64,000 nucleotides of DNA from positions 5,208,001 through 5,272,000 of the forward strand of contig NZ_AP022565.1 of the NCBI RefSeq assembly GCF_010727325.1, given 5' to 3'. The first letter of the stretch is position 1; each line of letters opens with the position of its first letter. A program made the position numbers and the translations under genes. Positions 18,704 to 31,610 of this stretch are shown one piece after another. Under the pieces are notes generated by a model. It had not been told where the DNA came from. It saw nothing but the letters and a program-made list of their open reading frames with translations, and did no database searches. This stretch comes from Mycolicibacterium alvei (lineage in GTDB: Bacteria > Actinomycetota > Actinomycetes > Mycobacteriales > Mycobacteriaceae).

Positions 18704-19861
18704 ATGCGTTTTCTGCACACCGCCGACTGGCAACTCGGCATGACCCGTCGCTTCCTCAAGGCCGGTGACGGCGAGGCCCAGCCTCGATACTCGGCGGCGC
18801 GCCGGGAGGCGGTCTCGGCCCTCGGCCCGGTGGCGGCGGCCTCGGGTGCGGAGTTCGTCGTGGTGTCCGGAGATGTGTTCGAGCACAACCAGTTGGCTCC
18901 CCGCGAGGTCAGCCTGTCGTTGGAGGCCATGCGGGCCATCGGGGTGCCGGTGTATCTGCTGCCGGGCAACCACGATCCGCTGGATGCCGCCTCGGTCTAC
19001 ACCAGCGCGCTGTTCACCGCGGAATGCCCGGACAACGTCGTGGTCCTCGATCGCGCGGGTGTGCACGAGGTGCGGCCCGGCCTGCAGATTGTTGCCGCTC
19101 CGTGGCGGTCCAAGGCGCCTACTTCGGATCTGGTCGGGGACGTGCTTGCCGATCTGCCCGCCGACGGGACCACGCGCGTGGTGGTCGGGCACGGCGGGGT
19201 CGACATCCTCGATCCGGACAAGGACAAACCGTCACTGATCCGGTTGGCCGCCGTCGAGGACGCGCTGGCGCGCGGTGCGGTGCACTATGTGGCATTGGGA
19301 GACAAGCACTCCCGCACCGAGGTCGGGTCGACCGGCCGGGTCTGGTACTCGGGTTCGCCCGAGGTGACCAACTACGACGACATCGAATCCGATCCGGGGC
19401 ATGTCCTGGTGGTCGAGATCGACGAGGCCGACCCGCACCGGCCGGTGCGGGTGGATTCGCAGCGGGTGGGCCGCTGGCGATTCATCACGCTGCGCCGCGA
19501 GGTGGACACCGACCGCGACGTGGCCGATCTGGATCTCAATCTGGACCTGTTGGCGGATAAGGAACGCACCGTGGTCCGCCTGGCGTTGACGGGTTCGCTG
19601 ACCGTGACGGACAAGGCCGCGTTGGATGCCTGCCTCGACAGGTACGCCCGCTTGTTCGCAGCTCTCACCGAGTGGGAGCGGCACACCGAGATCGTGGTCC
19701 TGCCCGCCGACGGGGAGTTCGACGACCTGGGTATCGGCGGGTTCGCGGCAGCCGCGGTGGACGAGTTGGTGGCCACCGCCCGTACCGAGGGATCCGGAGC
19801 CGACGATGCACGGGCAGCGTTGGGGCTGTTGCTGCGTCTGGTGGACCGGGGTGCGGCATGA
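18704..19861 (+). CDS. SbcD/YhaO-like metallophosphoesterase (DNA repair nuclease subunit)
   Basis: A 385-residue calcineurin-type phosphoesterase. Motifs in order: HTADWQLG, VVSGDVFEHN, LPGNHDP, VVGHGGV and ALGDKHSR. In most Mre11/SbcD proteins the first is DxH and the last GHxH; here they read DWQ and GDKH, so two metal ligands differ. ATG at 18704 has AGGAGGG nine bases upstream and starts at the family's first strand (MRFLHTAD). The next gene, an SbcC-like ATPase, overlaps by 4 bases. It likely makes a nuclease complex with it. Matches Rv1277. Confidence 0.87.
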   Translation: MRFLHTADWQLGMTRRFLKAGDGEAQPRYSAARREAVSALGPVAAASGAEFVVVSGDVFEHNQLAPREVSLSLEAMRAIGVPVYLLPGNHDPLDAASVYTSALFTAECPDNVVVLDRAGVHEVRPGLQIVAAPWRSKAPTSDLVGDVLADLPADGTTRVVVGHGGVDILDPDKDKPSLIRLAAVEDALARGAVHYVALGDKHSRTEVGSTGRVWYSGSPEVTNYDDIESDPGHVLVVEIDEADPHRPVRVDSQRVGRWRFITLRREVDTDRDVADLDLNLDLLADKERTVVRLALTGSLTVTDKAALDACLDRYARLFAALTEWERHTEIVVLPADGEFDDLGIGGFAAAAVDELVATARTEGSGADDARAALGLLLRLVDRGAA

Positions 19862-22491
19862 AACTGCACCGTCTGGTCCTGACCAACTACCGCGGCGTCA
19901 CCCACCGTGAGATCGAATTCCCCGATCACGGCGTAGTGGTGGTCAGCGGCGCCAATGAGATCGGCAAGTCCTCGATGATCGAGGCGCTGGATCTGCTGCT
20001 CGAGGCCAAGGACCGCTCGGGGAAGAAGGAAGTCAAGCAGGTCAAACCGACTCACGCTGACGTCGGCGCCGAGGTGGCGGCCGAAATATCCACCGGTCCT
20101 TACCGTTTCATGTATCGCAAGCGCTTTCACAAGCGCGCCGAAACCCAGCTGACCGTGCTGGCGCCGGTGCGCGAGCAGCTCAGCGGGGACGAGGCGCACG
20201 AGCGGGTATTGACCATGCTCGCCGAGACCATGGACACCAGTCTGTGGCAGGCCCAGCGGGTGCTGCAGTCCAGCTCGACTGCCCCGGTCGACCTGTCCGG
20301 CTCGGATGCGCTGGCCCGGGCGCTGGACGTGGCTGCCGGCGAGGCGGTGGCGCTCTCGGGGGATGAGCCGCTGCTGATCGAGCGCATCGACGCGGAGTAT
20401 CTGCGCTATTTCACCGCCACCGGTCGGCCCACCGGCGAGTGGGCGGCGGTGACCAAGCGACTGGCGGCCGCCGACGGCGAGGTCGCGCGATGCGCCGCGG
20501 AAGTGGCCGAGGTCGATGACGCGGTGCGTCGACATGTCGAACTCAGCGTGGAGGTCACCGGATTGGCCGATGAACACGAAGCGGCCCAGGCCGGTCTGGA
20601 CGCCGCCCGCAAGGCTGCCGAAGCGGTTGCCGCATTGGTGCAACGGCTCAAAGAGGCCGATGTGGTGGCCGAGGCCGCCCGGATGACGCAGGCCGCGGCC
20701 GCCGCCGCGCTCACCGAACGTCGACGGCTGCGCGCCGACCTCGACGAGCGGGCCGCCACCATCACCGAACTGCAGGCCGCGCTGAGTACGGCCGACGATG
20801 AAACCACCACGGCGCGTGGGGTGTACGAGGCTGCCGAAGCCGCCGCCGAACAGGCTCAGGCGGCAGCGCAGGAGCACGAAGCCCGGGTGGAGACCGCCCG
20901 TACCACCCTGACGCGGATGACCGACCGCGACGAGGCCGACCGCCTGGCTGGCCGGCTGAGCAAGATCGACGCCGGCATGCGTGACCTCGACCAGGTCAAC
21001 CGCGAGCTCGCCGAGGTCACCCTCGACGATGCCGGGATGCGGACCATCGAGTCGGCGGCGGTCGCGGTGGAACGTGCCGCGGGACAGGCTGAACTCGCTT
21101 CGGCACGAATCGAACTCGTGGCAGTCGCCGACCGCGATGTCCGGGTGGACGGGGCGCAGGTGTCTTTGGCGGCGGGCCAACCGTGGTCGGTCAACACCAC
21201 CGCACGAACCGAGATTGACGTGCCCGGGGTGCTCACCGTCCGCGTGGTGCCGGGAACGCCCGCCGCGCAGACTCAGGCCCGGCTCGACGAGGCGCAGAAT
21301 GTGCTGACTGCTGCGTTGACCGCTGCCGGAGTCGACGGCGTCGATGCCGCGCGAGCACTCGATGGCCGGCGCCGGGAACTGCTCGGCAGCCGGGATCGCT
21401 TGCGCGCCACCGTCGAGGCATTCACCGGAGATGACCAGCTGGCGGATCTGCGATCCCGGCTGGCGCATCTGCGGGCCGGGCTGCCCGATGAGACCGGGTT
21501 GTTCGAGCTCGCCGGACCCGCCGATATCGCCACCGCCCGAAGCGCACTCGATACTGCGGTGGCGGTGTACCGCCAGGCGGTGTCCGACAGTGAGACCAGC
21601 CGCAAGGTGGTCACCGCGGCGGCCGAGAAGCTACAGGAAAGGTCGACCCGCCTGAGCGTGCTGCGTGAGAAGCTCACCACGGCACAGGCCGAGCTGACGG
21701 TTGCCGGCGGCCGGTTGGAGGTCCAGCGTGCACAGGCCGGTGACGACGAGTTGGCGGTCAAGGCGCAGACCACCGACGAGGAAGCCGTTGCTGCCGCGGG
21801 CCACGCGGCCGGTCTACGCGCCGAATTATCTTCCACCCCACCGGATTCAGTGAAGGCCGCACTCGAGGAGGCAGTCCGGCGCGCCGGGGTGATCGATGCG
21901 CGCCACCGGGAGGCCGCCGACGAGCTGCGAGAGCTGGCGGCACAACTCAAGGTGTACGGCACTCAGGGACGCAAGGGGCACCTCGACACCGCCGAGACCG
22001 AACGGGAGCACGCCCACTCCGAGTACCTTCGGGTGCACCGCCGGGCCCGCGCCGCCGAGACCCTGCGGTCGGTGATGGCCCGCCACCGCGACGCCACCCG
22101 TCAGCGCTACGCCGATCCGTTCCGCCTCGAGGTGCAGCGGCTGGGCCGGCTCGTGTTCGGGGAGGATTTCGAGGTCGAAGTCGACAGCGATCTGAACATC
22201 CGGACCCGCACGGTGTCCGGCCGCACGGTGCCGTACGAATCGCTGTCGGGCGGTGCCAAGGAGCAATTGGCGATCGTCGCCCGGCTGGCCGGTGCCACGA
22301 TGGTGGCCAAGGAGGACAGCGTGCCCGTCATCATCGACGATGCGCTGGGCTTCACCGATCCGGAGCGGTTGACCAAGATGGGTGCGGTGTTCGACGCCGT
22401 AGGCGGGGACGGGCAGGTCATCGTGTTGACCTGCAGCCCGGAGCGGTACGCCGGCGTCGGCGGTGCGCACCACATCGAGCTGACGGCCTGA
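19858..22491 (+). CDS. SbcC/YhaN-like SMC-type ATPase, Rv1278-like
   Basis: An 877-residue ATPase with split ATP site: Walker A GANEIGKSSM at about residue 32, signature SLSGGAKEQLAIVARL and Walker B VPVIIDDALGFTD near the C-terminus. Between them lie long Ala/Glu/Arg-rich coiled coils (about 190-390 and 560-740) broken by a small beta domain. No CxxC zinc hook is present, so it is of the YhaN kind, not classical SbcC/Rad50. It should drive or gate the nuclease encoded just upstream. ATG overlaps that gene's stop. Confidence 0.87.
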   Translation: MKLHRLVLTNYRGVTHREIEFPDHGVVVVSGANEIGKSSMIEALDLLLEAKDRSGKKEVKQVKPTHADVGAEVAAEISTGPYRFMYRKRFHKRAETQLTVLAPVREQLSGDEAHERVLTMLAETMDTSLWQAQRVLQSSSTAPVDLSGSDALARALDVAAGEAVALSGDEPLLIERIDAEYLRYFTATGRPTGEWAAVTKRLAAADGEVARCAAEVAEVDDAVRRHVELSVEVTGLADEHEAAQAGLDAARKAAEAVAALVQRLKEADVVAEAARMTQAAAAAALTERRRLRADLDERAATITELQAALSTADDETTTARGVYEAAEAAAEQAQAAAQEHEARVETARTTLTRMTDRDEADRLAGRLSKIDAGMRDLDQVNRELAEVTLDDAGMRTIESAAVAVERAAGQAELASARIELVAVADRDVRVDGAQVSLAAGQPWSVNTTARTEIDVPGVLTVRVVPGTPAAQTQARLDEAQNVLTAALTAAGVDGVDAARALDGRRRELLGSRDRLRATVEAFTGDDQLADLRSRLAHLRAGLPDETGLFELAGPADIATARSALDTAVAVYRQAVSDSETSRKVVTAAAEKLQERSTRLSVLREKLTTAQAELTVAGGRLEVQRAQAGDDELAVKAQTTDEEAVAAAGHAAGLRAELSSTPPDSVKAALEEAVRRAGVIDARHREAADELRELAAQLKVYGTQGRKGHLDTAETEREHAHSEYLRVHRRARAAETLRSVMARHRDATRQRYADPFRLEVQRLGRLVFGEDFEVEVDSDLNIRTRTVSGRTVPYESLSGGAKEQLAIVARLAGATMVAKEDSVPVIIDDALGFTDPERLTKMGAVFDAVGGDGQVIVLTCSPERYAGVGGAHHIELTA

Positions 22492-22494
22492 CGA

Positions 22495-23712
22495 TCAGAA
22501 GTAGGCGTTGGACGGAACGGGCGTGCCGTGCAACAAGTTCTGGCCGATCACCCGTGCTTTGTAGGCCACCGGGTTGTGCAGGGTGATGGTGCGGATGTTG
22601 CGCCAGTGCCGGTCCAGATTGCGCTGCCGGGAGGCTGCACTGGCCCCGCCGAGTTCCAGCAGCCGGGTAGCGGCCTCGAGGGCGACGTCGTCCAGGTGCA
22701 CCTTGACCTTGGCTACCTTGAGTTGGGCTTCCGCCGCGAGCCGCGCATCGGGCACCCCGTCGACGGCAGAGTCCGTGGCGGCACCGATCGCCGTCGCCGC
22801 ATCGAGAACCGCGGCCCGGGCCACATAGGCCGTGCTGGCCAGGACCCCGAGTTGGCGTTGGAGCAGCGGATCATTGGTGGGCCGCTCGGTGACGGCATGG
22901 CTGAAGTTGCGTTCGCGGGAGCGCAGCAGCGCCACTCCGTCGTCGACCACATTGGCCAGGATGCCCGCGACCACCGCGTGGATGAACAACTGCAGCGAGG
23001 CGTACTGCACGGTCGGCACCGGTTCGGCGTCGTACGGGGTGTCGGACAGGATCTCGTCGGCGGCGACCGCGACGTTCGTGAACGTCGTGGTACCGGTCCC
23101 GGTGCGGCGCTGGCCGAATCCGTCCCAGTCATCGACGAGCCGCACTCCATCACGGTCGGTGGGGACCAGGACGTTGGCCACCGAGTCATGATCGGTGGTG
23201 GCGGTGACCGTCAGATAGTCCGAGAACAGGGTGCCGGTGCTGTAGTACTTCTCGCCGGCGAGGAGGAACCCCGACCCGGCTGGATCGGCCCGCAGCCGGG
23301 TGTTGAACACCAGGCTGCCCACGGCCAATGAGCCCTTCTCGCTGAACGCGTTACCGAAGATCTTTCCCGCTGCGATCTTGCCCAGCCAGTGCCTGGACAC
23401 CGGATGATCGGCAATGCGCAGCCGCTCCTCGGTGAACCAGAAGTGGGTCCGGAAGATGTGGGCCACAATGGGATCGGCTTTGGCCACGTCGATCACCGCG
23501 GAGAACAGCTGCGGCACAGTGAATCCGGAGCCGCCCAGGGTCTCGGGCAGGCGCAGGGAGCCGAACCCGGTGCGCTTGAGCGCCGCGACCTGATCGAAAG
23601 GGTTCTCGTCGTTCAGGTCACGGTCCTTGGCGCCTGAGGCGATCGAGGCCAGCAGGTCATCCCAGTCCGGGGTCCCGGGCTGGATGTGGGTCACGTTCTC
23701 GACGGAGGTCAT
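22495..23712 (-). CDS. Flavin-dependent monooxygenase of the acyl-CoA dehydrogenase fold (DszC/SfnB-like)
   Basis: A 405-residue protein with the three-part acyl-CoA dehydrogenase fold: helical N-domain (LRLPETLGGSGFTVPQL), a beta middle (GNAFSEKGSLAVG, LLAGEKYYSTGTLFSD), and a C-terminal helix bundle (LLELGGASAASRQRNLDRHW). The GEKYYSTG segment and the absence of the catalytic Glu loop seen in true acyl-CoA dehydrogenases fit group D flavin monooxygenases such as DszC and SfnB, which use reduced flavin and oxygen. ATG 23712 has GGAGGT-like bases upstream. It lies 45 bases after the TetR gene on the same strand. Substrate unknown; a sulfur compound is possible. Confidence 0.78.
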   Translation of the reverse strand: MTSVENVTHIQPGTPDWDDLLASIASGAKDRDLNDENPFDQVAALKRTGFGSLRLPETLGGSGFTVPQLFSAVIDVAKADPIVAHIFRTHFWFTEERLRIADHPVSRHWLGKIAAGKIFGNAFSEKGSLAVGSLVFNTRLRADPAGSGFLLAGEKYYSTGTLFSDYLTVTATTDHDSVANVLVPTDRDGVRLVDDWDGFGQRRTGTGTTTFTNVAVAADEILSDTPYDAEPVPTVQYASLQLFIHAVVAGILANVVDDGVALLRSRERNFSHAVTERPTNDPLLQRQLGVLASTAYVARAAVLDAATAIGAATDSAVDGVPDARLAAEAQLKVAKVKVHLDDVALEAATRLLELGGASAASRQRNLDRHWRNIRTITLHNPVAYKARVIGQNLLHGTPVPSNAYF

Positions 23713-23757
23713 GGCACCGTTGTATCCGGACCGGCTATCGGAGGGCACGTGTTCGGA

Positions 23758-24369
23758 TCAGCCCGAACCCAAACCCTTCACCCGCATACCGTAGAGATAG
23801 GTGGTCAGGTATTCGTTGATCACCTGGACCCGCACGTCAGGGGTGTCGGGAATGGTGATCAACAGTGCGTAGAGCCCGGCGAAAAACGATGCGCCATTGT
23901 GCAGCACGTCTACCTCATCTGGGATCTCGCCGGCGTCCCTGGCGCGCTGGAGTTCCTCGACCAATGCCACCAGCACAGGATGGTGTGCCCATTCCTCCGT
24001 GGGCGGGCGGGTCGTGGAGAAATGAAGCGCCAGAAAATCTTTGAACAATGGGCGGCCCAGACGCCGCTCCAACTTTTCCAGCATGCGTACGGATTCGGTG
24101 AGGGTGGCACGGACATCGTGCGGTGTGGCGAAGAATCGGATGAGCCCGGCGGCCATCCGCGCCTCCTCGCGCTGTTCCAGCTCCACCAGGACGTGTTCCT
24201 TGGTGGGGAAGTGGAAGAAGAAGGTGCCGTGGGCGACACCCGCGGCCGACGCGATCGCGGCCGTATCGGCTGCGGCCATGCCGTCGCGTTTGAACTCGGA
24301 GATCGCTGCGCCCAGCAAGCGCTCCCGTGTCTGCAAGCCCTTGCGGCTGCGGGGGGTGGCCTTGAGCAC
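23758..24369 (-). CDS. TetR-family repressor
   Basis: A 203-residue regulator. The N-terminal helix-turn-helix reads TRERLLGAAISEFKRDGM then AAIASAAGVAHGTFFFHF, the usual TetR pattern, and the rest is a helical ligand domain. It is divergent from a four-gene membrane operon, and the space between holds two similar palindromes. It probably represses both that operon and its own transcript, including the flavin monooxygenase. The ligand is unknown. Confidence 0.92.
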   Translation of the reverse strand: MLKATPRSRKGLQTRERLLGAAISEFKRDGMAAADTAAIASAAGVAHGTFFFHFPTKEHVLVELEQREEARMAAGLIRFFATPHDVRATLTESVRMLEKLERRLGRPLFKDFLALHFSTTRPPTEEWAHHPVLVALVEELQRARDAGEIPDEVDVLHNGASFFAGLYALLITIPDTPDVRVQVINEYLTTYLYGMRVKGLGSG

Positions 24370-24393
24370 GGCTCGATGCTACGTCACTTATTA

Positions 24394-24407
24394 CTGACTG
24401 TACTCAG
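24394..24407. promoter_or_regulatory. Candidate TetR operator 1
   Basis: CTGACTGTACTCAG is an inverted repeat of CTGACT around two bases with one mismatch in the right arm. It lies 25 bases upstream of the TetR start and matches the second palindrome at 24462. The pair flanks the divergent promoters. Binding by the adjacent TetR protein is inferred. Confidence 0.65.
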
Positions 24408-24461
24408 TTTAGGTCTTTCATTATTGAGCCGCTGCCACTACGGTTTCGGGGGTAAGAAGTT

Positions 24462-24475
24462 CTGACTGAAGTCAG
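24462..24475. promoter_or_regulatory. Candidate TetR operator 2
   Basis: CTGACTGAAGTCAG is a perfect inverted repeat of CTGACT with a two-base centre, starting 68 bases from operator 1. It ends just 4 bases before the GGAGGTAGGG ribosome site of the first membrane gene, so a bound repressor would sit at or just after the transcription start. Confidence 0.7.
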
Positions 24476-24489
24476 TTTTGGAGGTAGGG

Positions 24490-25248
24490 ATGCAGATCCT
24501 GGAGCAGGTTCAAGACCTGCCGAAAGCCGGCAATATCAAGGCCCAGTGGGTGAGCCTGTGGACTGGTCCGGTCGTCGGGGTCGTGCTGCTGGTGGCGCTG
24601 CTGGCGTTTCCCGGCTTCTGGCCGCCTATGTCACCGACCTGGAACGCGCAACAGGTCGCCGAGTTCTACGCCGACCACACCGCATGGATCCGATTCAGTC
24701 AGGTGACCTTCAATCTCTGCGGAATCATGATCCTGCCGTTCTTCATGGTGATCGTCGTCCAGATGAAACGCATGAAGGGCCAGACCGACGTCTTCGCCTA
24801 CTGCTACCTCACCGCTGCGGTCAGCGGTGCCACGATCTTCGCGTTGTCCAACGTATTCTTCCTGGTGGCCGCGTTTCGTCCGGACCGTAACCCGGAACTG
24901 ATCATGCTGCTCAACGATCTGGCCTGGATCGTGTTCATCGCGCCGGTCGGCATGGTGGTGTCGCAATTCGCCGTGCTGGCGGTCGCGGTCTATTTCGACA
25001 ACGGGCCCGCCCCGGTGTTCCCACGCTGGGTGGGCCACTACTCGCTGGCCACCGCGTTGGCGATGATTCCGGCCGCGGGCGCGGCGGCGTTTCACACCGG
25101 ACCGCTGGCCTGGGACGGCGTGCTGGCCTTCTGGTTGCGCAACGGGGCCTTCGCAATCTTCGTCATCGTGATGTTCTTCGTGCTGCGCCGCGCGGTGATC
25201 AGCCAGGCCGTGTCCGAAGGCGTCGTAGCGGGACAGGTGCAGGCGTGA
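24490..25248 (+). CDS. Polytopic membrane protein A of the TetR-controlled cluster
   Basis: A 252-residue membrane protein with about six hydrophobic helices. It is a paralogue of the next protein: both share FRPDR-x-PEL-I-x-LL-x-DL after helix 3 and a C-terminal block with GP-x-AW-x-G and AFW. ATG at 24490 is chosen because GGAGGTAGGG lies directly before it. No family with a known function is recognised. Its place at the head of an operon ending in oxidase subunit III-like and IV-like genes suggests a membrane complex, perhaps respiratory or an oxygenase partner. The next gene overlaps by 4 bases. Confidence 0.75.
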   Translation: MQILEQVQDLPKAGNIKAQWVSLWTGPVVGVVLLVALLAFPGFWPPMSPTWNAQQVAEFYADHTAWIRFSQVTFNLCGIMILPFFMVIVVQMKRMKGQTDVFAYCYLTAAVSGATIFALSNVFFLVAAFRPDRNPELIMLLNDLAWIVFIAPVGMVVSQFAVLAVAVYFDNGPAPVFPRWVGHYSLATALAMIPAAGAAAFHTGPLAWDGVLAFWLRNGAFAIFVIVMFFVLRRAVISQAVSEGVVAGQVQA

Positions 25249-25964
25249 CCGTCCTGGCCGAGGCGCCGCCGGGCCGGCCCGACGTGCGGTTGATGACCTG
25301 GTTCTTCCCGCTCTGGTACGGGGCCTTCGGCGTCATCATCTGCATCCTGACCAGGGTGACGCCGCCACCGCGCCCCGATGTCACCGCGGCCGACAAGGTG
25401 GCGTTCTTCGCCGAACACGGCCTGACCATCAAGATCGGCTTCTGCCTACTGCTGATCCTGCTCGGTGGTGCGGCGATGACCAACGGGCTGGTCGCCTACC
25501 AGATCAAGCGCATGTCAGTCGGTTCGGTGTTCGCCTACGGCTACATCGGTGGCATGGGCGTCGGTGCACTGCCGGGATTCATGTTGGTTTCGGTGTGCTT
25601 TCTCACCGCGGCCTTCCGGCCCGACCGCGACCCGGAATTGATCAGCCTGCTCTATGACCTCGGAATGCTCTCCTACAACGGCTCGTTGGGCTGTTTCACG
25701 GCGGCCTACCTGGTATTTGCGATCGCCATCCTCTACGACAAGAACAAGATCTTCCCGATGTGGTTCGCCTATGTGACCATCTGGCAGATCATCACCGAAG
25801 TGATCGCCACGCAGATGTTCGTGTTCGAGTCGGGGCCGTTCGCGTGGAACGGATCGATCGCGTTCTGGTGGGCGGTAGTGGTCTTCTCCGTCTGGCTGTC
25901 GGCCCTGATCGTGCTGCTACGGCAGGCCCTCAATCGTGAGGAAACATCCAGTGACACAAACTGA
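25245..25964 (+). CDS. Polytopic membrane protein B, paralogue of protein A
   Basis: A 239-residue protein with about six hydrophobic helices. Shared with the preceding protein: FRPDRDPELISLLYDL, a Met-rich middle, and a late SGPFAWNGSIAFWWA. A tandem duplication that has diverged is the simplest reading. Start GTG overlaps the preceding stop, and the following gene starts within its last 14 bases, so all members are co-translated. There are no conserved heme-binding His pairs that I can place with confidence. Function unknown. Confidence 0.75.
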   Translation: MTVLAEAPPGRPDVRLMTWFFPLWYGAFGVIICILTRVTPPPRPDVTAADKVAFFAEHGLTIKIGFCLLLILLGGAAMTNGLVAYQIKRMSVGSVFAYGYIGGMGVGALPGFMLVSVCFLTAAFRPDRDPELISLLYDLGMLSYNGSLGCFTAAYLVFAIAILYDKNKIFPMWFAYVTIWQIITEVIATQMFVFESGPFAWNGSIAFWWAVVVFSVWLSALIVLLRQALNREETSSDTN

Positions 25965-26529
25965 TTCACGACCACAGCCGTCGTCGGAGCATCTGCCCGG
26001 CGACGGGCACATGTGGGTGATGGTGCTCGGTGACCTGGTCATCTTCGGTGGCTACTTCATCGTCTTCATGATCTACCGGACCATGCATCCCGAAGAATTC
26101 CTGCGTGCTCAACAGCATCTCGACATCGACATCGGTGTCGTCAATACGGTGATCCTGCTGACCAGTTCCTGGCTGGTGGCCCGGGCGGTGCTGGCCGCCA
26201 GGGCCGGCCGTCACGAAGCGGCGATCCGGCTGACCTACGCCGGCGCTGTCGGCGGTCTGATGTTCATGGCCTGCAAGGGTTATGAATGGATCGTCAAGAT
26301 CCAGAACGGGCACACCAATTCCGAGATGTTCTACTCGTTCTACTACGTGTTGACCGGTGTGCACCTGATTCACGTGCTGATCGGGCTCATCGCGTTGGGC
26401 GTGATCGTGCGGGAGCTGCAGAATCCATCCAGACGCCGCGCGTCGGTCGTGGAGGCGAGCGCGGTGTACTGGCATATGGTCGACCTGCTCTGGGTGATCA
26501 TCTTCGGCCTGCTGTACGTGGTGAGGTGA
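25951..26529 (+). CDS. Cytochrome c oxidase subunit III-like protein (CoxC/NorE type)
   Basis: A 192-residue protein with five hydrophobic helices and subunit III motifs: GDGHMWVMVLGDLVIFG at the N-terminus, KGYEWIVKI, FYSFYYVLTGVHLIHVL, and the end YWHMVDLLWVIIF. It lacks the first two helices of the long subunit III and so resembles NorE and five-helix forms. GTG at 25951 has GAGGAAA six bases upstream; GTG 25936 is possible. No subunit I or II gene is in the window, so it is an orphan. It may serve the main oxidase or a nitric-oxide-linked or oxygenase system. Confidence 0.85.
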   Translation: MTQTDSRPQPSSEHLPGDGHMWVMVLGDLVIFGGYFIVFMIYRTMHPEEFLRAQQHLDIDIGVVNTVILLTSSWLVARAVLAARAGRHEAAIRLTYAGAVGGLMFMACKGYEWIVKIQNGHTNSEMFYSFYYVLTGVHLIHVLIGLIALGVIVRELQNPSRRRASVVEASAVYWHMVDLLWVIIFGLLYVVR

Positions 26530-26531
26530 CG

Positions 26532-26798
26532 ATGACCGACAAGGCTGTGACTCAGACGTGGCTGCTGCTGGTCGTCATCACCGTCGGATCGTGGTGGTTG
26601 GCGCCTGCGCAGTATTCAGAGACGTTGCGGGCCAGCGTGCCGATCACCGCGCTGGTGCTCGTGCTGACGCTGATCAAGTCCCGGTTGATCATCCGGCAGT
26701 TCATGGAGGTCCGGACCGCGCCACGGTGGCTCAAGCTCGCCACGGACGGCTGGCTGGTGGTGCTGTTCGGGGCGATTTTCGCCATCTATCTGAGCTGA
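26532..26798 (+). CDS. Small oxidase subunit IV-like membrane protein (COX4_pro/NorF type)
   Basis: An 88-residue protein with three hydrophobic helices, matching the small prokaryotic subunit IV family: TWLLLVVITVGSWW, then LIKSRLIIRQFMEVR, then GWLVVLFGAIFAIYL. The stretch between helices 2 and 3 (KSRLIIRQFMEVR) is the family's hallmark. It starts two bases after the subunit III-like gene, and the pair recalls norE-norF. It is an accessory subunit with no redox cofactor. Confidence 0.8.
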   Translation: MTDKAVTQTWLLLVVITVGSWWLAPAQYSETLRASVPITALVLVLTLIKSRLIIRQFMEVRTAPRWLKLATDGWLVVLFGAIFAIYLS

Positions 26799-26823: not shown

Positions 26824-28074
26824 ATGACGATGAACGCCAAGCGCAGGCGGGTGCACGACAAGCTGGCTGCGTTACCGGGGGTGCGGGCGGTTCGCCGCCC
26901 GGTCAGTCCGGGTTCTGACGAGCAGTTCGACCTGTTCTACGTGCGGGCCGGGCGCAAATCGGCGCACCCGGTGGTGATCATCCCGGGCGGCCCCGGCATG
27001 GCATCGATCCAGCCGTACCGCTCGCTGCGCAGGCGTGCAACCGCGGCCGGATGCGACGTGATCATGATCGAGCACCGTGGCGTCGGGATGTCGCGGCACA
27101 CCGATGTGGGTGCAGATCTGCCTCCGGAGGCCATCACCGTCGAGCAGGTGGTCGACGACATCGCGGCGGTCCTGGATGACGCCGGCGCGCACGACGCGGT
27201 GCTGTACGGCACCTCGTACGGAAGCTACATCGCCGCTGGTTTCGGGGTGCGCCATCCGGGCCGGGTCTGCGCGATGGTGCTGGATTCGCCACTGCTGTCT
27301 ACCGCCGATATCGAAGACATGCGCCGCGCAGTTCGCGGGCTGCTGTGGGAGGGGACGGACCCGGAGACCGTGACCCTGGCGCCCAAGGTCCGGCGTCTGG
27401 TGGCCGACGGGGCATTGGCCACCAGGGGCGGAGAACTGGCCGGCCTGTTGTACGGGTTCGGCGGCGCTGCCCTGCTGGACCGCCAACTCGAGTTGTTGCT
27501 GCGAGGGCGGACGGTGGTCTGGTCCGCACTCAACCGGCTCAGCCGGATGTCGACACGAAAAGCGCCGTACCGCAACGAGGTAGATCTCGTCGGGCGGATC
27601 GCCTTCCGCGAGTTGAACTACGCCGGGGTACCCGACGGTCTGCCGCTGGATCCAGCGCTGGAGATGGCCGACATGATCGGCAGTGCGAAGTTCTTCGAAC
27701 CCTTCGAGGCCGAACCTTTCGACCTGCCGGCCGAGTTACCGAACTTTCGCTGGCCCACCGTGGTGCTGTCCGGTGGCCGCGACCTGACCACGCCGCCGGT
27801 CGTTGCCGAGCGGATCGCGGCACTGGTGCCCGAGGCTGTGCTGGTCCGGATGCCGACGGTGGTGCACAGTGTGGTCGATACCAGGGAGCGGGCTGCCTTG
27901 GCGGTGATCCGTGCGGTGCGTGACGGTGTGGCCGAGCAACTTTCGGCCACGGCCGCCGAACTGGACGCCCTGCCCGCACGTCCGGTGATCCGGGTGGCGG
28001 TGTCGGCCGTCGCGGCGGCCACCATCGTGGAGGCAGCGATGCCCGCCGGCAGAACGCGAGGACGGCCTACTTGA
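26824..28074 (+). CDS. Alpha/beta hydrolase, proline iminopeptidase-like
   Basis: A 416-residue serine hydrolase. The oxyanion loop is IIPGGPGMAS, the nucleophile elbow GTSYGSYIA, the acid probably in SGGRDLTTPP and the catalytic His in PTVVHSVVD. These fit the proline iminopeptidase/S33 group. A long cap inserts between the strands. No signal peptide is clear. It starts 25 bases after the subunit IV-like gene, so it may be in the same operon, and ends inside the convergent oppA gene (8-base overlap). The substrate is unknown. Confidence 0.8.
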   Translation: MTMNAKRRRVHDKLAALPGVRAVRRPVSPGSDEQFDLFYVRAGRKSAHPVVIIPGGPGMASIQPYRSLRRRATAAGCDVIMIEHRGVGMSRHTDVGADLPPEAITVEQVVDDIAAVLDDAGAHDAVLYGTSYGSYIAAGFGVRHPGRVCAMVLDSPLLSTADIEDMRRAVRGLLWEGTDPETVTLAPKVRRLVADGALATRGGELAGLLYGFGGAALLDRQLELLLRGRTVVWSALNRLSRMSTRKAPYRNEVDLVGRIAFRELNYAGVPDGLPLDPALEMADMIGSAKFFEPFEAEPFDLPAELPNFRWPTVVLSGGRDLTTPPVVAERIAALVPEAVLVRMPTVVHSVVDTRERAALAVIRAVRDGVAEQLSATAAELDALPARPVIRVAVSAVAAATIVEAAMPAGRTRGRPT

Positions 28075-29758
28075 GGAAACCGACCTTGGTGTAGTCGGTA
28101 TCGGCCAGCCCGGGGGCCCCGAAATTGGCCAGGCTGCTGCGCACCGCGACGTTTCCAGGCGACTGGAACAAGGGGAGGCTGAACACCTCGGCGAACAGCA
28201 TCTGGTCCAGCTCGTTGGCCAGAGCCAGCGCCTTGGACGGGTCCAGCTCCTCCAGCGTCTGCTCGATCTTGGCGTCGATCTCCGGGCTGCCGATCTTGCC
28301 GAAGTTACTGGCGCCGTTCTGCGCGTAGATCTGGGTCAACGAGCTCAGGGGGAAAGCGTCGCCGAGGAACGCGAACTGGGCAATGTCGAAGTCACCCTTG
28401 ATGATGTAGTTGGTGAAGAAACCGGTGCCCGGCTTGGTGTCGAGCTTCAGGTTCACCCCGATCTGGCCGAGCATGTTCTGCGCGATCTGGGCTACCTGCC
28501 GGGTGCTGCCCGCGTCGTAGAACACGTTGCGGATGACGAGTTCCTTGCCGTCTTTCTCCCGGAACTGCCGTCCCGCAGGCACTTTCCAACCCAGCGCGTC
28601 GAGTTCGGCCCTGGCCTTGTCGGGGTCGAAGGCCACCGAGGCGGCGTTGTCCTGGTAACCCTGCTGACCCGCCACGAAGATGTGATTGTTCAGCGGCACC
28701 GGATTGTCGGTGAGACCCCGCTGGGTGATATTGGCGATGGCCTGCCGGTCGATGCCCTTGGCGACGGCACCACGCAGCGCCGGGTCGGCCAGGATCGACC
28801 CGGGCGCGCCGTTGAACGTCAGGTGGTACCAGCTGGCCGACGGTGCCCGCCGGATGCTGATACCCGCGGTCTTACGCGCAATGGTCAGTTCGTCCAGCGA
28901 CGCGGTGCCGGTGGCGTCGATCGTATTGTTCTGCAGTGCCGGTATGCGTGCGGAGTCGTCGAGCACCAGAAAGGTGATCGTGTCCAACAGTGGCGGGGCA
29001 CCCCACCATTTCGGGTTGCGGCTCAACGTGATCCGCTGCGCGCCCCGGTCGATGTCGGATACCAGGAACGGTCCTGCCGACGGTCCGGGCTGGCTGAGTT
29101 GGGCCTTGTTGAACGCCTCGGGAGTGGCGGTCATGCTCTTGGGCAACAGTCGCCCGTTGCCGGCGAACATGCCCTTCCAGTCCGCGTACGGTTTGGCGAA
29201 GGTCATCACGGCCTGTCGGTCGTCCACACCGCGGGTCACCGAGGCCACCCGCTCGCTGCCGCTGGGGGCGGCGATGACGAACGCGGGGTTCTTCCCACTG
29301 TTGGCCTCGGTCTGGGACTTGATGTCCTCCCAGGTGATCGGAGTGCCGTCGGACCAGACTGCCTTGGGGTTGATCGTGTAGGTGACCACCTGGGGGTTGG
29401 TGCCGGTCAGTTCGACGTTGGTGAAGTAGTCGGTGTTCACCGTCGCCGATCCGTCGGCGGCGATCAGGAAGGCGCGGGGCATCGTGGGTCTGGTGAGCGA
29501 GCCGACATCGCCGGTGTTGCCGTCGAGGTGCAGTGGGTTGAAATTCGACGGGAACTCGGTCAACGCCAGGCGCAGGTTGCCGCCCTGACGCAGGTTTGCC
29601 ACGTCCTGGGGGTTGATGTCGTTGGTGGTGCCGACCTCGGCGTTACCGCCCGCCGAGGGGGTTTCCCGGTCGCCACCCGAACACCCGGCCAGGGCCAATG
29701 TGGTGACTGCTGCGACGATGGCGAAACGCTGGAGCTTGAACCCCTTGAACCCGTTCAC
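28067..29758 (-). CDS. oppA: OppA, oligopeptide-binding lipoprotein
   Basis: A 563-residue periplasmic-type solute-binding lipoprotein of the SBP family 5. GTG at 29758 gives a signal with lipobox LALAGC (Cys26). The mature part has the family's pattern (YTINPKAVWSDGTPITWEDI, GPFLVSDIDRGAQRI, ALRGAVAKGIDRQAIANI). It closes the opp operon, in the order B-C-D-A, ten bases after oppD. In M. tuberculosis OppA binds peptides and has been linked to glutathione uptake. The open frame extends upstream into oppD, but that start has no signal peptide. Confidence 0.92.
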   Translation of the reverse strand: MNGFKGFKLQRFAIVAAVTTLALAGCSGGDRETPSAGGNAEVGTTNDINPQDVANLRQGGNLRLALTEFPSNFNPLHLDGNTGDVGSLTRPTMPRAFLIAADGSATVNTDYFTNVELTGTNPQVVTYTINPKAVWSDGTPITWEDIKSQTEANSGKNPAFVIAAPSGSERVASVTRGVDDRQAVMTFAKPYADWKGMFAGNGRLLPKSMTATPEAFNKAQLSQPGPSAGPFLVSDIDRGAQRITLSRNPKWWGAPPLLDTITFLVLDDSARIPALQNNTIDATGTASLDELTIARKTAGISIRRAPSASWYHLTFNGAPGSILADPALRGAVAKGIDRQAIANITQRGLTDNPVPLNNHIFVAGQQGYQDNAASVAFDPDKARAELDALGWKVPAGRQFREKDGKELVIRNVFYDAGSTRQVAQIAQNMLGQIGVNLKLDTKPGTGFFTNYIIKGDFDIAQFAFLGDAFPLSSLTQIYAQNGASNFGKIGSPEIDAKIEQTLEELDPSKALALANELDQMLFAEVFSLPLFQSPGNVAVRSSLANFGAPGLADTDYTKVGFLK

Positions 29759-29768
29759 CCCGTCGATG

Positions 29769-31610
29769 CTAGATGCCTGTGACGGGTTGCGGCACCGCCG
29801 CCAGCAACTTGCGGGTGTACGGGTGCTGCGGGGCGTCGAACACGGCATCGCCGGAACCCTGTTCGACGACCGCGCCCCGATACATCACCGCGACGTCATG
29901 GGCCAGGTGCTTGACCACCGACAAGTCGTGTGACACGAACAGATAGGCCAGCCCGAATCGGTCCTGCAGGTCGAGCAGGAGGTTGATGATCCCGGCCTGG
30001 ATGGAGACGTCGAGCGCGGAGACCGGTTCGTCGAGCGCGATGATCTTGGGCTGCAGGGCCAGGGCGCGGGCGATCCCGATGCGCTGCTTCTGACCGCCGG
30101 AGAATTCGGCTGGGTAGCGGCTCGCGTCCGCGCGCCGCAGGCCCACCAATTCGAGTAGCTCGGCCACCCGCTCGTCGATCCGTGGCTTGTCGAAACCGTT
30201 GGCGGTCAACGGTTCGGCCAACACATCCGACACCGGCAGCCGGGGGTCCAGCGAGGCAACCGGGTCCTGGAACACCACCTGGAGGTCGGTGCGCAGTGCC
30301 CGGCGCGCTCTGCGGCTCAGGTTGGCCACGTCGGAGCCGAGAACTTCGATCGAACCCGATTGCGGTGCAGCCAGATTCAGGATCTGGTGCAGGGTGGTGG
30401 ACTTGCCGGATCCGGACTCGCCGACGATGCCGAGGGTGCGGCCACTGTGCAGGTCGAAGCTGACGTTGTCGACCGCGCGGACCTCGCCGACCTGCCTGCG
30501 CAACACCACGCCCTTGGTCAAGGTGTAGGTCTTGGACAGCTCGCGCACCCGCAGCACCACCGAAGTGTCGGCGGACGGGGTGTCAGCAGTGGCGGTGGCC
30601 GAGTCGGTCACCTGGTAGATCTCGGCGGCGCTGCGCCCGGCGACCTGCTCGGTGCGGATGCAGGCGGCGTGGTGGTCCGGCGCCAACTCGACGAGTTCTG
30701 GCTCGGCGGCCTTACATTCGTCGATCACCAGCGGGCAGCGCGGGGCGAATGGGCAGCCCTGCGGCGTGGTGGTGAGCGAGGGCGGGGCACCGGGGATCGG
30801 CACCAGCCGGGTGCCCTGTGGGGCGTCCAGCCGTGGCACCGAGCCGAGCAGTCCGACGGTGTAGGGCATCCGGGCCTGCTCGTAGAGCCGGGCCACCGGT
30901 GCGTCCTCGACGGCTCGTCCGGCGTACATCACCAGGGCCCGGTCGGCGAACTCGGCCACCACGCCGAGGTCGTGGGTGATGATGAGCACCCCGGCGCCGG
31001 TGACGTCACGCGCGGTCTTGAGCACATCGAGGATCTGGGCCTGCACCGTGACGTCCAGGGCCGTGGTGGGTTCGTCGCAGATCAGCAGATCGGGGTCATT
31101 GGCGATGGCGATGGCGATCACCACACGTTGGCGTTCGCCGCCGGACAGTTCGTGTGGGAAGGCGCGGGCCCGCTGTTCCGGCTGGGCGATACCCACCAGC
31201 TCAAGCAGTTCCACGGCGCGGGTCCGGGCCGCGCGCCGGCCCAGGTTGCGGTTGTGCACCGTGAGGGCCTCGGCGATCTGGTCGCCGACGGTGTAGACGG
31301 GCGTCAGTGCGGACATCGGGTCCTGGAACACCGTGCCGATGGCGTTGCCCCGGACTTGCGAGAGCTCCGGGTCCGACAGCCCGATCAGTTCCTTGCCGCG
31401 CAACTGCACCGATCCGGAAACCTCGGCGAACTCGGGCAGCAGGCCGACCACGGCCATCGCGCTGGCCGATTTCCCGGCGCCGGATTCGCCGACGAGCGCG
31501 ACCACCTCGCCGGCATCCACGTGAAAGTTGAGTCCCCGCACCGCGTGTACCGCGTCGGTGTCGGTGGGGAAGTCGACGGTGAGGTCAGATACTTCGAGCA
31601 GTCGACTCAT
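29769..31610 (-). CDS. oppD: OppD, dual ATPase of the oligopeptide importer
   Basis: A 613-residue fusion of two ABC ATPase domains (OppD-OppF type). First half: Walker [10 protein letters not shown], signature ELSGGERQR, Walker [13 protein letters not shown]. Second half from about residue 350: Walker [10 protein letters not shown], signature EFSGGQKQR, Walker [13 protein letters not shown]. Between them is the oligopeptide/dipeptide C-terminal domain with Cys residues ([15 protein letters not shown]) that in relatives can hold a [4Fe-4S] cluster. Its start overlaps the oppC stop as ATGA. Confidence 0.94.

Follow-up and report, generated by a model that had tools for sequence, protein, structure and literature searches.

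In the genome of Mycolicibacterium alvei we find a TetR-family regulator gene divergent from four tightly packed genes, here called A, B, III and IV, of which A and B encode related membrane proteins and III and IV encode proteins of the COX3 and COX4_pro families. The four genes are inherited together, in a fixed order and with reading frames that overlap or lie close to one another. Our preferred explanation, to which we give somewhat less than even credence, is that they form a self-contained, inducible membrane module in which A and B would replace the catalytic subunit as the partner of a NorE/NorF-like pair. Extended to its full scope, and held with greater reserve, this becomes a class of membrane machine drawn from the heme-copper oxidase world, in which III and IV would have left the catalytic subunit for the six-span A family and later for the A/B pair; such a machine would be induced by a ligand, work without heme or copper, handle hydrophobic compounds and be spread over actinobacteria and proteobacteria, partly on plasmids. 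We found no account of the module in the full-text literature, a coverage outside which most subscription papers fall, and as far as that literature goes we regard it as a conserved and undescribed unit.

The stretch of DNA analysed, hereafter the window, is 64,000 nucleotides long and corresponds to positions 5208001-5272000 of contig 1 in a genome of 6.0 Mb. The TetR-family gene (23758-24369, minus strand; PF00440, 1.9e-11, 44.0 bits against a cut-off of 24) is followed on the plus strand by A (24490-25248), which encodes a membrane protein of 252 aa, and by B (25245-25964), which encodes a 239-aa paralogue of A; both are read as six spans from predicted models, the paralogy of B being drawn also from a tree. 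Then come III (25951-26529), a COX3-family gene placed by its tree on the NorE branch (PF00510, 1.6e-13), and IV (26532-26798), for a small, NorF-like membrane protein of the COX4_pro family (PF03626, 5.8e-14), and the matches of III and IV both exceed the Pfam cut-offs. The frames of A and B share 4 bases, that of III opens 14 bases ahead of the end of B, and IV starts 2 bases past III. The initial annotation, made from the letters alone, had described a divergent TetR gene and closely packed tandem paralogues with III-like and IV-like genes, a picture that the gene coordinates and family matches bear out; the interval it quoted, 24370-26798, does hold the operon but leaves the TetR gene outside. 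An SfnB/DszC-like flavin monooxygenase gene (22495-23748, minus strand) adjoins the TetR gene, and an alpha/beta hydrolase gene (26824-28074) comes after IV. Farther downstream, the opposite strand at 28067-31610 carries a family 5 solute-binding protein and a double-ATPase protein of the oligopeptide ABC transporter type, both ordinary.

A single genome scan with B, which finds close relatives and is silent on distant forms, returned 69 loci, and the order A-B-III-IV is found in 68 of them; in the remaining one, L101, the contig starts partway through the operon. The spacing is equally regular. Of the 67 loci with a countable start, 63 show the 4-base overlap of A with B and the other four a 2-base gap, the distance from B to III is at most 19 bases in 66/69 loci, and that from III to IV is at most 19 bases in all 69. 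By record title the genera include Mycolicibacterium, Mycobacterium, Mycolicibacter, Aldersonia, Rhodococcus, Nocardia and Actinomadura, together with Williamsia, whose record is flagged as contaminated; one locus (L072) bears the title of an Acidobacteria MAG and is to be taken with caution. The neighbourhood is thus not peculiar to one strain, as it might have been, but recurs at 69 actinobacterial loci in many genera. The co-occurrence of the A/B pair with III and IV that the initial annotation had singled out for checking holds in fixed order at 68/69 loci, and of the TetR gene it can be said that a divergent copy is present in most loci but not in every one. In a Rhodococcus strain (sp. 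HM1; L078:624-1358) B is split over two frames, which may be real or a sequencing error.

Plasmids of actinobacteria, of sphingomonads and of Diaphorobacter carry a simpler form, A-III-IV. Departures from the linked arrangement are L122, which has no annotated IV, L042, where the III/IV pair is on the opposite strand at a distance of about 2.6 kb, and L120, where A stands without III and IV. The last of these, from Streptomyces sp. NBC_00080 (L120:8209-10735), has its A-type gene after genes for an Acyl-CoA_dh_2 hydroxylase and a flavin reductase, and a mycofactocin cluster from mftR to mftF also lies ahead of it.

Two operators of the form CTGACTnnAsTCAG had been proposed for the region between the divergent genes, and both are there. 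O1, CTGACTGTACTCAG, lies at 24394-24407, 24 bp from the TetR start, and O2, CTGACTGAAGTCAG, a perfect palindrome, at 24462-24475, 14 bp before the start codon of A; both are kept in relatives. Across the whole 6.0-Mb genome the pattern CTGACTNNASTCAG matches O1 and O2 only, so that it is unique to the module, and when one mismatch is allowed the window has four matches, all of them at O1 and O2, where 0.30 would be expected and none of 100 shuffles reached four. We then surveyed the 300 bases upstream of A in 67 loci for TGACTNNAGTCA with at most one mismatch. A match was present in 56 loci, in 36 of them in at least two copies; of 1258 control windows taken from these loci, one had a match. 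Operator and divergent TetR gene occur together in 51 of the 67 loci, neither in 10, the operator alone in five and the TetR gene alone in one. Two operator-alone loci (L092, L097) and one of the loci with neither (L093) do contain a minus-strand TetR gene, whose longest open frame extends beyond our distance limit, so that L093 and L104 are loci with TetR but no operator at the stringency used. At three others (L071, L094, L111) the operator is present and a divergent TetR gene is missing, with a related TetR gene within 5 kb in L094 and L111. Among the loci with neither, a same-strand TetR gene (L089-L091, L103, L112) or a gene for a MarR-type protein (L087) stands in its place, and in L088 we saw no replacement regulator. 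The footprint is a strong phylogenetic one, and it ties the TetR protein to a conserved palindrome near both start codons as its putative binding site. A TetR protein with a single target and conserved operators offers a route to the inducer, and hence to the function.

The identification of A and B as two paralogous six-helix proteins that share an FRPDR-x-PELI word was upheld: they are 33% identical over 202 aligned positions, and the word reads FRPDRNPELI in A and FRPDRDPELI in B. Both are predicted to fold as helical bundles (A, pLDDT 87.3, pTM 0.85, ten DSSP helices; B, pLDDT 90.2, pTM 0.85, seven DSSP helices), which we read as six membrane spans each, with the helices broken in the models. 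By the positive-inside rule both termini would lie in the cytoplasm and the FRPDR-PE and GP-AW-G loops, which are conserved, would face outward. Neither A nor B of the window reaches the cut-off of any Pfam or NCBIfam model. Searches brought up 1552 homologues of A at E<=0.001 (7998 candidates scored), and some database entries among the relatives of A bear the name of DUF4386 (PF14329), a domain of unknown function. While A and B of the window have no match to PF14329, it is reached by two of 14 diverse A-type proteins (best 4.3e-6), so that a distant tie is possible; hhalign of the A profile against five DUF4386 rows gave a probability of 10.6. A tree built from 48 A-type proteins, among them 12 A and 12 B of the double form, places the A and the B proteins of that form in sister clades (96/95), each at 100.

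Could the module be a system for efflux or tolerance, controlled by TetR, that rids the cell of a toxic hydrophobic compound or product? A regulator with two operators at a single place in the genome, the several spans of A and B, and the frequent location on plasmids or islands would all agree with such a role. However, A and B show no sequence likeness to a known transporter, the fold search with both models gave no match among solved structures at E<=0.001, the A profile found none among PDB sequences at E<=1, and efflux pumps are not known to contain COX3-type subunits. We consider this explanation unlikely.

The place of III was sought in a tree of 65 proteins, which took in the window, 20 of the 69 loci, further loci and plasmid copies, together with six NorE and ten CtaE proteins. 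The 49 A-linked III proteins fall together in a single clade (99/94), next to a NorE-like protein of Thiothrix; this clade takes in a gene of genome G030 that stands without A, as well as the III of L042 on the other strand, and nested within it is the clade of A-B-linked III proteins (100/98). The ten CtaE proteins split off at 98/86, and the NorE proteins, which do not form a single clade in this tree, lie outside the A-linked one. By these groupings III sides with NorE in the COX3 tree and not with CtaE. It retains E112, H138, H141, W174, H175, D178 and W181, which are invariant across all the NorE and CtaE proteins used. Position 28, which we take to be that of the carbodiimide-reactive glutamate of COX3, is Glu in all ten CtaE proteins; in III it is Asp in 92% of the A-B-linked and 96% of the single-A rows, a residue found there in none of the six NorE and none of the ten CtaE proteins. 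The solved relatives of III among the PDB matches listed are oxidase subunit III chains.

III and IV thus belong to the same two families as NorE and NorF, and stand in the same order. Unlike the nor genes, the module is without norCB, norQ and norD (norC, norB, norQ and norD were all missing from the seven genes scanned at the module), its partners are A and B, and its regulator is of the TetR family. With the aa3, bo3 and caa3 heme-copper oxidases it shares the COX3 and COX4_pro families, but it has no subunit I or II, and its III stands apart from the CtaE clade. The simplest reading would be a single joining of a NorE/NorF-like pair to an A-type protein, with a later duplication of A. NorE/NorF-like pairs are also met with elsewhere. 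On a Thiothrix plasmid (L198:3944-7739) one lies beside genes for hemerythrin, NorQ-type and VWA proteins, with no norB among the genes shown, and over the few kb shown two others (L195:3010-3796 and L196:2926-3814) are flanked by no nor genes and by no gene annotated as A-like; since these two lack both kinds of neighbour, a third context for such a pair may exist.

The window itself has no subunit I or II near the module, as had been noted at the outset: the genome has three PF00115 matches, at C1:1662045, 5109298 and 5113342, of which the closest stops about 93 kb short of the window start, and PF00116 is matched once, at C1:304820. What III does follow is A. A III profile search of 61 genomes (the window's own and 60 relatives) gave 54 III genes at 155 bits or more, the next ones, at 124 bits or less, being taken as CtaE-type, and 53 of the 54 have an A-type gene no more than 1.5 kb away, 33 of them with two A-type genes on the same strand and 20 with one. 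The sole exception is a III gene of G030, 22 kb from the nearest A-type gene. In a sample of 197 genomes of the phylum, comparison of coordinates placed all 13 III genes of at least 204 bits within 400 bases of an A-type gene; eight of these are from genomes among the 61, and the other five are from G108, G112 and G174, of which G112 and G174 belong to other families of the phylum. Fifteen genomes of this sample have an A-type match, seven of them only a weak one (64 bits or less), and those seven show no III of this branch among the matches listed. The dependence does not run both ways, since 44 of the 131 A-type genes in the 61 genomes have no III nearby (26 in G018 and 12 in G030), so that A can stand alone. 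The mycobacterial genome G018 is unusual in its expansion of the family, with about 40 A-type genes, many on one 324-kb contig; on its contig 4 (L021-L027, about 24-187 kb) A-type genes lie amid TetR, FAD amine-oxidase-like, acyl-CoA dehydrogenase, enoyl-CoA hydratase, AMP-ligase and six AveC-like (PF17198) genes.

The case for A/B as the genetic partner of III/IV is strong, and the pattern bears on another explanation, that III and IV serve some distant heme-copper enzyme, an aa3 oxidase or NO reductase, as alternative accessory subunits, with A and B as assembly or recruitment factors. That III falls on the NorE branch and keeps the residues invariant in NorE and CtaE would fit this, as would the three subunit I genes elsewhere in the genome. 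Against it, 53 of the 54 III genes of the branch stand by A-type genes, the genome of the window yielded one subunit II gene, and G018 has ten III genes of the branch to two subunit I genes, as G030 has two to one; with III in excess, the III proteins cannot each have an oxidase of their own. We therefore hold it to be quite unlikely. A practical consequence is that public plasmid records label genes of the module cytochrome c oxidase subunit 3 and subunit IV, and genes so labelled may be counted toward respiration or denitrification, while here they follow the A-type family.

It had further been suggested that the complex may be linked to the flavin monooxygenase on the other side of the TetR gene, and one may picture the module as the membrane partner of this SfnB/DszC-like enzyme. 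The two adjoin in 12 of the 13 loci (L052 being the exception) of Mycolicibacterium peregrinum and the other best matches to B, which we call the fortuitum clade, and the hydroxylase and flavin reductase genes that precede the A gene of L120 could be cited in the same sense. But none of the 56 other loci, 54 of which show at least 2.5 kb upstream of A, has a flavin monooxygenase beside the module, and the suggested link was not sustained; we judge such a partnership very improbable. The alpha/beta hydrolase is likewise a neighbour in all 13 loci of the clade, with one weak match (L094) among the other 56. A gene for an SbcC/SMC-like AAA ATPase (19672-22491), upstream of the flavin monooxygenase, also neighbours the module only in the fortuitum clade.

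Among 142 A-type rows there is no column in which His or Cys attains 60%; Arg, Asp and Trp residues are conserved throughout. Within A-B loci, A keeps C77 in 62/69, H100 in 59/69 and H183 in 58/69, and B keeps C118 in 69/71 and C150 in 70/71 rows of its relatives, neither being family-wide in A-type proteins; the best His column of B is H58 (71/96). As ligand-type residues are kept in the A-B form, a cofactor, a metal or a disulfide is possible there, and C118 and C150 may make a disulfide or a metal site or may be kept by chance of descent. That A and B are the two halves of a divergent heme-copper subunit I, which has twelve spans and six ligands, would suit the sum of six and six spans, the partners III and IV, and the His of A and two Cys of B kept in the A-B form, but it is highly improbable, given hhalign probabilities against subunit I of 0.1 for A and 0.6 for B (100 for A against B), the want of any His or Cys column at 60% across the family, conserved His residues in A that are fewer than the six ligands, and the absence of subunit I among the fold-search matches listed, an absence that does not exclude it.

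If A and B take the place of the catalytic subunit, as we prefer to think, the working of the module can be envisioned as follows. A TetR dimer would repress both promoters until released by a small molecule, and translational coupling could ensure that the four proteins are made together. A and B would then pair up, with A forming a homodimer in the single-gene forms, and III and IV would bind them at the site that takes subunit I in an oxidase or NO reductase. Of the undescribed complex that the initial annotation had proposed, what stands is that the genes travel as one unit, in many genera, with no subunit I or II and no published description found; that the A/B and III/IV proteins are physically joined we think slightly more likely than not. 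As His and Cys are not conserved over the A-type family as a whole, and no subunit II is left over in the genome of the window, such a complex is probably not an oxidase. If real, it would mean that an oxidase subunit III can work without a catalytic subunit, and it would offer a clean system for the role of III itself.

The weakest step is the activity of the complex. With neither heme nor copper, it might serve as a conduit or carrier in the membrane for hydrophobic compounds encountered in catabolism, which we put forward as a doubtful proposal, and that the task is the handling of hydrophobic compounds, though favoured, is a guess. In an uncontrolled count, 12 of 13 annotated plasmid loci have at least one catabolic-type gene (P450, Rieske dioxygenase, SDR, acyl-CoA dehydrogenase, thiolase, MCE or mycofactocin) in the stretch read; a fourteenth record, without annotation, was left out, L122 is the locus without such genes, and L124 is a polyketide cluster. 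III is present in 12 of the 13, the exception being L120. On chromosomes, where 19 modules were set against 19 control stretches, catabolic genes are only mildly enriched near the module: acyl-CoA dehydrogenase genes occur at 6 module loci vs 3 control loci, SDR at 7 vs 4, enoyl-CoA hydratase at 6 vs 3, AMP-binding at 7 vs 3, MCE at 4 vs 0, and P450 at 5 vs 3, with five P450 genes in each set.
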